Of a stretch of DNA of 64,000 nt, positions 58,049 to 64,000 are shown piece after piece (position 1 is the first letter of the stretch; each line of letters begins with the position of its first letter). The translations under genes and the position numbers were made by a program. Under the pieces are notes generated by a model. It was given only the letters and a program-made list of their open reading frames with translations. It ran no database searches and had not been told where the DNA came from. Origin of the DNA: Dehalococcoidia bacterium (GTDB lineage: Bacteria; Chloroflexota; Dehalococcoidia; DSTF01; JACRBR01); assembly GCA_021462855.1 (NCBI GenBank), contig JAJTXQ010000039.1, forward strand, positions 124,001 to 188,000, given 5' to 3'.

Positions 58049-59104
58049 ATGCCGCTGGATGACCGCTGGACCGCCGCGCGAGCCAATGAGTGGTACGAGC
58101 GCCAGCCCTGGCTCGTCGGCTGCAACTTCATCCCGAGCACCGCCGCTAACCAGCTCGAGATGTGGCAGGCGGAGACGTTCGACGCCGCGACGATCGACCG
58201 CGAACTCGGCTGGGCTGCCACGCTCGGCTTCACCTCGATGCGCGTGTTCCTTCACGACCTGCTGTGGGACGCCGACGCTGGTGGTTTCACCCGCCGGGTC
58301 GGCGAGTACCTCGCCATCTCCGCGCGTCACGGCATCAGCACCATGTTCGTGCTGTTCGACGACTGCTGGCACGGCGGCGCAACGCTCGGACCGCAGCCGG
58401 CGCCCGTGCCCGGCGTGCACAACTCACGCTGGCTGCAGTCGCCCGGCCATGCCGTGATCGAGGCGAACGGCGGCGCGCTGCCGCGCCTCGAAGCGTACGT
58501 GCGCGGTGTCGTCGGCGCGTTTGGCGATGATCCGCGCGTCGTGGCGTGGGACATGTACAACGAGATCACGAACTTCTTCCTGCCCGCGTCGGCGCTGTCC
58601 ACGGATGAGCGCGACGCCGCGATGCGCGAGGCGCTCGCGCGCCGCCAGCGCACCACGCCGGCGCACCTTCGGCTGCTCGACCTCGCGTTCGCCTGGGCGC
58701 GCGGCGCCGCGCCGTCGCAGCCGCTGACCGCGGGCGCGTTCCTGCCGGACCGCGAGCTGAACGCCCGCCTGTTCGACCTCTCCGACGTGATCTAATTCCA
58801 CTGCTACGAGCCGGCGGAGCGGCTCGAACAGCTGATCGGGTCGCTGCGGCGCCACGGCCGGCCGCTGCTCTGCACGGAGTACATGGCCCGCACCGCCGGC
58901 AGCGAGTTCCGCACGGTCATGCCGGTGCTGAAGCGCGAGCGCGTCGCCGCGTACAACTGGGGCCTCGTCAACGGCAAGACGCAGACGCACATCTCCTGGT
59001 CCGGCGAAGGCGACGGCTGGTTCCACGACATCCTCCACCCCGACGGGACGCCGTACGACGCGGGCGAGGCGGCGTTCATCCGCGCCACCACCGGCGCGGC
59101 GTGA
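58049..59104 (+). pseudogene. Glycoside hydrolase (GH5-like beta-glycanase), interrupted by an in-frame TAA
   Basis: The first 248 codons encode a (beta/alpha)8 glycoside hydrolase: WLVGCNFIPSTAANQLEMW, LGFTSMRVFLHDLLW, the acid/base Glu in AWDMYNEITNFFLPAS. A TAA at 58793-58795 interrupts the run in DLSDVI-stop-FHCYEPAERL. The frame continues for 103 codons with the nucleophile Glu in LLCTEYMARTAGS, YNWGLVNGKTQT and a proper end at 59104. Ser (TCA) or a similar residue is expected at the stop. Total length about 351 aa. The reading frame is otherwise undamaged, so the event is recent or an assembly error. The ribosome-binding site is gaggaggg. Confidence 0.8.
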
Positions 59105-62268: not shown

Positions 62269-62290
62269 AGCGGTACAGGAGGAACGACGA

Positions 62291-64000
62291 GTGGTCATCA
62301 AGAGCGAACGCAAGATCGCCTCAGGGAGCTGGGCCGACCGCTATCGCGACAAGTGGAAGTGAGACAAGGTGACGTGGGGCAGCCACTCGGTGGACTGCTA
62401 CCCGGGTGGCTGCCCGTTCCGCGTGTACTCGAAGGACGGCAAGATCCTCCGCGAGGAACAGGGCGGCAAGCTGCCGGTCATCGAGCCGGGCGTGCCGGAC
62501 ATGAACCCCATGGGGTGCCAGAAGGGCGCCTCGTGGTGCCACATCCACTACTCGCCGGACCGCGTCACGCAGCCATTGAAGCGCGCCGGTGAGCGCGGCG
62601 AGGGCAAGTGGCAGCCGGTCTCGTGGGACCAGGCGTTCACCGAGATCGCCGACGCCATGCTCGACGCGATGGTCGAGGACGGCCCCGAATCGATCATCAA
62701 CCTCATGACGCCAGAGCCCGGAGCGGGCCCGGCGCGGCAATTCACCAACGCGCTGGGCACACCCACGACCGACGGCAACTCGGAGTTCCAGGACTTCAGC
62801 CCCGGGTTCTACATCACGTGGGGCAAGTTCAACCCCGTCAGCTCCATGGACGACTGGTTCCTCGCCGAGCTGACGCTGATCTGGCACGCGAACCCGGTCT
62901 ACACCAACATCCACTGGTACCACTACGTCGCCGAGTCCCGCTACAACGGCGGCGAAGTCGTGACCATCGCGCCGGACTACAGCCCGTCGGCGATCCACGC
63001 CGACTACCACGTGCCCGTGCGCATCGGCACCGACGCCGCGCTCGCGCTGTCGATGTGCAAGGTGATCATCGATGCAGGGCTCTACAACCGGAAGTTTGTG
63101 CAGGAACAGACCGACCTCGGCCTGCTGATCCGCACCGACAACTCGCGCTTCCTCCGCGGCAGCGATGTCGCCGAGGGCGACCGCGACGACCAGTTCTTCT
63201 GGATGGACGACCGGTCGAAAGTCCTGACGCCGGCGCCGCGCGCGACGCTCGCGATGGGCGACATCGACCCGGCGCTCGAAGGGACGCTCACCGTCACGCT
63301 CAAGGATGGTTCGAAGGTCGAGTGCATCCCGGCGTTCGCCCGGCTGCGCGAGAAGCTCAAGGACTACGAGCCGGAGGAAGCGGCGAAGGTCTGCGAGATC
63401 CACCCTGACGCGATCCGCAAGCTCGCCCGCAAGGTGGCGACGCGCCGCACGAAGATCTTCATCGGCTGGAACTCGGGCAAGTACTACCACGGCGACCTCT
63501 ACGAGCGCGCAATGACGCTCCTCCTCGGCCTCACGGGCAATTGGGGCAAGAAGGGCACCGGCACGCGCTCGTGGGCCATCTCCGCGCTCGACGGCGGCAG
63601 CTTCATGCGGCAGAAGGGCCGGCTCGGCCAGGACGCCGCGCGCGAGTGGGTGACCAACCTCGCCAAGGCGCGCCGCATGCTCACCGGCGACGACCCGACG
63701 CTCACCATGGAGATGGTGACGTACCGGGCGGCGCAGATGGCGGCCGAGCTCGGCGGCCTCGGCCGCATGATCCCGCCGGCGTTCCTCTGGTACTACCAGT
63801 ACGGCTACAAGGAGCGCTGGAACAACCCCGACAACAACGACCCGTCGATGAAGCGCACGTTCGACGAGTACCTGAACGAGGCGATCGAGAAGGGGTGGTG
63901 GGACTCCGGCCTCGCGAAGAAGTACCGCGAGGTGCGCCCGCGCGTCCTGTTCGAGGCCGGCGGCAACATGCTGCGGCGCCAGCGCGGCGGCCAGAAGCTC
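62291..64000 (+). CDS. Molybdopterin oxidoreductase, DMSO-reductase type II-like (3' truncated; in-frame UGA at codon 24)
   Basis: At least 570 codons, open to the window edge except for UGA at 62360-62362. The Fe-S (FS0) ligands match NarG-type enzymes: His32, Cys36, Cys41, Cys76 (HSVDCYPGGCP and MGCQKGASW); the Cys41-Cys76 spacing of 35 equals that between the last two NarG ligands. Cofactor-domain segments are WYHYVAESRYNGGEVV, VRIGTDAALALSMCKVIID and LLLGLTGNWGKKGTGTRS. The start GTG 62291 has a perfect AGGAGG 8 nt upstream, so the first 23 codons are real. A GTG at 62369 just after the UGA is the only near alternative start. The usual Asp molybdenum ligand is not evident. No Tat signal is seen. 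Substrate unknown. Confidence 0.85.
62360..62415 (+). other. In-frame UGA followed by a 14-bp hairpin (SECIS-like geometry)
   Basis: UGA at 62360-62362 is followed by inverted arms 62377-62390 and 62402-62415. They pair over 14 bp (one G-U) around an 11-nt loop that begins with T-G. The apical loop starts 28 nt after the UGA. Bacterial SECIS elements are described with a loop 16-37 nt downstream, a 4-16 bp upper stem and a G among the first two loop bases; this hairpin fits all three. It also encodes conserved protein sequence, so it could be coincidental. Confidence 0.5.

Follow-up and report, generated by a model that had tools for sequence, protein, structure and literature searches.

An in-frame UGA at a conserved tryptophan position of an ethylbenzene-dehydrogenase-like molybdoenzyme gene from a Dehalococcoidia bacterium

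The gene of an ethylbenzene-dehydrogenase-like alpha subunit in a Dehalococcoidia bacterium contains an in-frame UGA at codon 24, which at a probability of about 0.95 reflects the conversion of an ancestral tryptophan codon into a stop that is private to this genome, with the gene otherwise intact. Its origin would be either a consensus error or the base of a minor strain on one side or a very recent real mutation on the other, and we consider the odds between the two to be about equal. At the level of the DNA, the conversion of TGG into TGA would correspond to one G-to-A change at position 62362. A mutation or consensus error of this kind had been ranked first in a sequence-only reading of the same DNA, and it is borne out by the presence of TGG at the site in 59 of 62 other sequences, among them the three closest orthologues.

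Results

The analysed window comprises 64,000 nucleotides (C33:124001-188000) of an assembly of 3.02 Mb in 76 contigs, in which contig C33 accounts for 197 kb. The nearest named relatives of its source are metagenome-assembled Chloroflexota genomes. All features described within the window are located on the forward strand. Direct reading has confirmed the earlier description of the start of the gene, where a Shine-Dalgarno-like AGGAGG (62278..62283) is found 7 nt upstream of a GTG at 62291, from which 23 codons (VVIKSERKIASGSWADRYRDKWK) lead to the TGA at 62360..62362 and to an open frame that starts with DKVTWGSHSVDCYPGGCPF. This frame (62291..64000) proceeds past the end of the window and covers C33:186291-189077 on the contig, with the TGA at codon 24 being the sole stop that interrupts its 928 codons in the deposited sequence.

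Profile and PDB matches identify the encoded protein as an EbdA-like alpha subunit of the type II DMSO reductase family, with homology over the catalytic subunit. Residues 12-570 align with EbdA (PDB 2ivf_A, E=5e-130), and the 570-residue part of the protein that was tested scores 528 bits against TIGR03479 (E=3e-158, residues 13-568) and 464 bits against the EbdA model, both of which are under the cut-off for a whole protein. The gene shares with EbdA and TIGR03479 the N-terminal YRKEWKWDKVNWGSH and an adjoining gene for an iron-sulfur beta subunit, which is located directly 3' of the alpha gene (L001:4120-5172) and was assigned from its cysteine motifs. It differs from EbdA at codon 24, where the latter contains a Trp instead of the TGA. 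No gene for a gamma subunit or a chaperone was recognised by eye in the open reading frames adjoining the two subunits. About ten intact paralogues of the alpha subunit are distributed over contigs C6, C8, C11, C13, C28 and C33 of this 3-Mb Chloroflexota genome; many are also found in the same-family relatives G005, G006 and G007, and none were detected in G001-G004.

The identity of codon 24 was compared in 62 other sequences from loci L003-L111, several of which belong to the same genomes, leaving a number of independent sequences that is somewhat below 62. The site is occupied by TGG in 59 cases, by TTC in two and by TAC in one, with neither a TGA nor a Cys codon in any of the 62. Given the choice between Trp, Cys and UGA that the sequence-only reading had put to the homologues, the answer is thus Trp, which is also found in the three closest orthologues that are 88, 85 and 82% identical to the gene. 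In PDB alignments, the equivalent residue is a Trp in EbdA and PcrA. For NarG of E. coli the position had been described as aromatic, which does not hold, the aligned residue being a His (WQHDK). This comparison shows that the UGA is private to the genome under study and that the ancestral codon encoded Trp.

Downstream of the UGA, the hairpin between positions 62377 and 62415 was recovered as previously described, with 14 base pairs formed by GGGCAGCCACTCGG and CCGGGTGGCTGCCC and an 11-nt loop (TGGACTGCTAC) that begins 28 nt past the stop codon. Among all TGA triplets of the 197-kb contig, a contiguous stem of at least 14 base pairs follows at SECIS-like spacing in 0.12% of cases, and such a stem arises in 0.21% of synonymous recodings of the same peptide. 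The stem is thus stronger than expected by chance, yet it is mostly inherited from homologues with TGG at codon 24, many of which contain a core of 8-11 base pairs (11 in the sister sequence of 88% identity) since this core is encoded by the conserved motif WGSH...GGCP. Its length is maximal in the present gene, where it exceeds that of any homologue read, and the added pairs result from synonymous differences in third positions. When tested as a conserved element, the hairpin shows no conservation beyond that of the coding motif. Its presence in TGG-containing relatives identifies it as a palindrome of coding origin rather than a SECIS element, which is older than the UGA and independent of it.

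The features of this hairpin can be compared to the model of bacterial SECIS elements, which specifies an apical loop of 3-9 nt that has a G among its two leading nucleotides, at a distance of 16-37 nt from the UGA (PMC13188914). With 11 nt, the loop is larger than defined by this model, and the minimum-energy structure closes on the loop ACUG, where the required G is missing from the two leading nucleotides. The hairpin satisfies the strict model if the stem may be as short as 4 bp, a level that 75% of the TGAs of the contig reach as well, and it fails once a stem of at least 5 bp is demanded. The Rfam family SECIS_1 has no match in the genome nor in any of 14 control genomes, and its absence is therefore uninformative.

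A complete set of genes for selenocysteine insertion is encoded in the genome, including SelA (518 bits), SelB (310 bits), SelD (360 bits) and a tRNA-Sec with the anticodon TCA. The selD gene is itself a selenoprotein gene with an in-frame TGA in the context LASCAG-UGA-ASKAG (L120, G000:C35:63000-68000). A reassignment of UGA to Trp (code 4) was rejected, since release factor RF2 (prfB) is present, the tRNA-Trp has the anticodon CCA and several genes of the contig end in TGA. The type of the tRNA was assigned for the 30 of 44 tRNA matches with loci available, which include this tRNA-Trp.

Besides the UGA, the alpha gene departs at four positions from columns that are invariant in ten aligned homologues. 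Since such departures are only four in number and equally frequent in the sister sequence, the gene is not decayed. The pairwise dN/dS ratio between both sequences is 0.11. When assigned to branches by crude parsimony, 52 nonsynonymous and 55 synonymous changes are counted for the present gene compared to 34 and 80 for its sister (Fisher p=0.006), an excess that is not shared by the beta subunit with 16:30 compared to 31:51. The closest orthologue (L064/L010, G005:C317, 88% identical) carries a premature stop of its own, a TAG in alignment column 369, where most relatives contain a GAG. Among the matches listed in a survey of 60 genomes, this orthologue and the gene itself are the only strong homologues with internal stops, and 400 genomes drawn from the phylum have added a few paralogues, none of which contain stops. 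The nonsynonymous excess together with the stop in the sister leans slightly towards a real relaxation of selection.

A scan for in-frame stops that covered the 197-kb contig C33 has revealed one other clear nonsense codon of the single-base type. This TAA (58793..58795) is located 3.6 kb upstream of the TGA in a glycoside-hydrolase-like gene (about 58049-59104), in the context FDLSDVI-stop-FHCYEPAERL, and its sole informative homologue (L126, 53% identical) contains a Ser codon (TCA) at this position.

Discussion

The properties of the alpha gene allow a comparison of several explanations for its interruption, of which two invoke a recoding of the UGA. Since the complete set of genes would in principle permit the insertion of selenocysteine at a UGA, and with these genes being present, the question of recoding is decided by the homologues and the hairpin. 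A residue of this type beside the FS0 cluster, with its insertion directed by the downstream hairpin, draws on the selenocysteine machinery with its UGA-containing selD, on a distance of 28 nt that falls within the published range and on a stem that is longer than in any homologue read. Described selenoproteins that rely on bacterial SECIS elements, such as formate dehydrogenase or the SelD on contig C35, share the combination of an in-frame UGA with a downstream hairpin and the machinery for insertion, but they differ from the present case, where the UGA replaces a Trp rather than a Cys and is confined to a single genome, and where the hairpin is equally found in homologues with TGG. As nearly all selenoproteins have Cys-containing homologues (PMC13188914), the prevalence of Trp at the site and the absence of either Cys or UGA in relatives weigh heavily against selenocysteine, and so do the large loop and the poor agreement with the strict SECIS model. 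The novel selenocysteine site that had been contemplated in the sequence-only reading is thus highly improbable. The same slim odds apply to the idea that we are facing the first conversion of a Trp to a selenocysteine beside FS0 of a molybdoenzyme, in a lineage where the required machinery had met a strong hairpin that by chance resided at the right distance. The recoding proposal was expected to fall if the sel genes were missing and if Trp was invariant in homologues; the former is not the case, with selA/B/C/D all found, whereas the latter is observed in 59 of 62 sequences.

UGA is the stop codon that is most readily misread by tRNA-Trp, and Trp is the residue required at codon 24. A programmed or regulated readthrough, which would provide the full-length subunit at low level or under certain conditions, would be compatible with both, but the UGA is shared by no homologue, it acts as an ordinary stop in this genome with its RF2, its tRNA-Trp of anticodon CCA and other genes of the contig ending in TGA, and a nonsense mutation can leak without any underlying programme. 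We thus regard this second proposal of the earlier reading as very unlikely.

An explanation of a different kind, which constitutes one branch of our preferred reading, assumes a real and recently inactivated paralogue in the lineage instead of an error in the assembly. The presence of about ten intact paralogues suggests that a loss of the alpha subunit could be tolerated, and the restriction of internal stops to this gene and its closest orthologue among the strong homologues listed in the survey of 60 genomes, as well as the nonsynonymous excess in alpha that is not seen in beta, point in the same direction. Conversely, the gene shows no other damage, its dN/dS is low overall and the branch counts were obtained by crude parsimony, leaving a pseudogene with close to an even chance. 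If the UGA is real, translation would stop after 23 residues, and any further product would have to originate either from weak natural readthrough or from a reinitiation at the GTG at 62369..62371. The latter is a possible restart codon at the head of an open reading frame of 902 amino acids, whose product would retain the His and Cys ligands of FS0 but lack the conserved YRDKWKW segment.

Collectively, we are confronted with an ordinary molybdoenzyme gene that carries an ordinary nonsense change or a sequencing error, and its recoding is without support. The case cautions that an in-frame UGA can coincide with a good hairpin and a full set of sel genes without defining a selenocysteine site, and automatic searches for selenoproteins in metagenome-assembled genomes could misfile such a gene.
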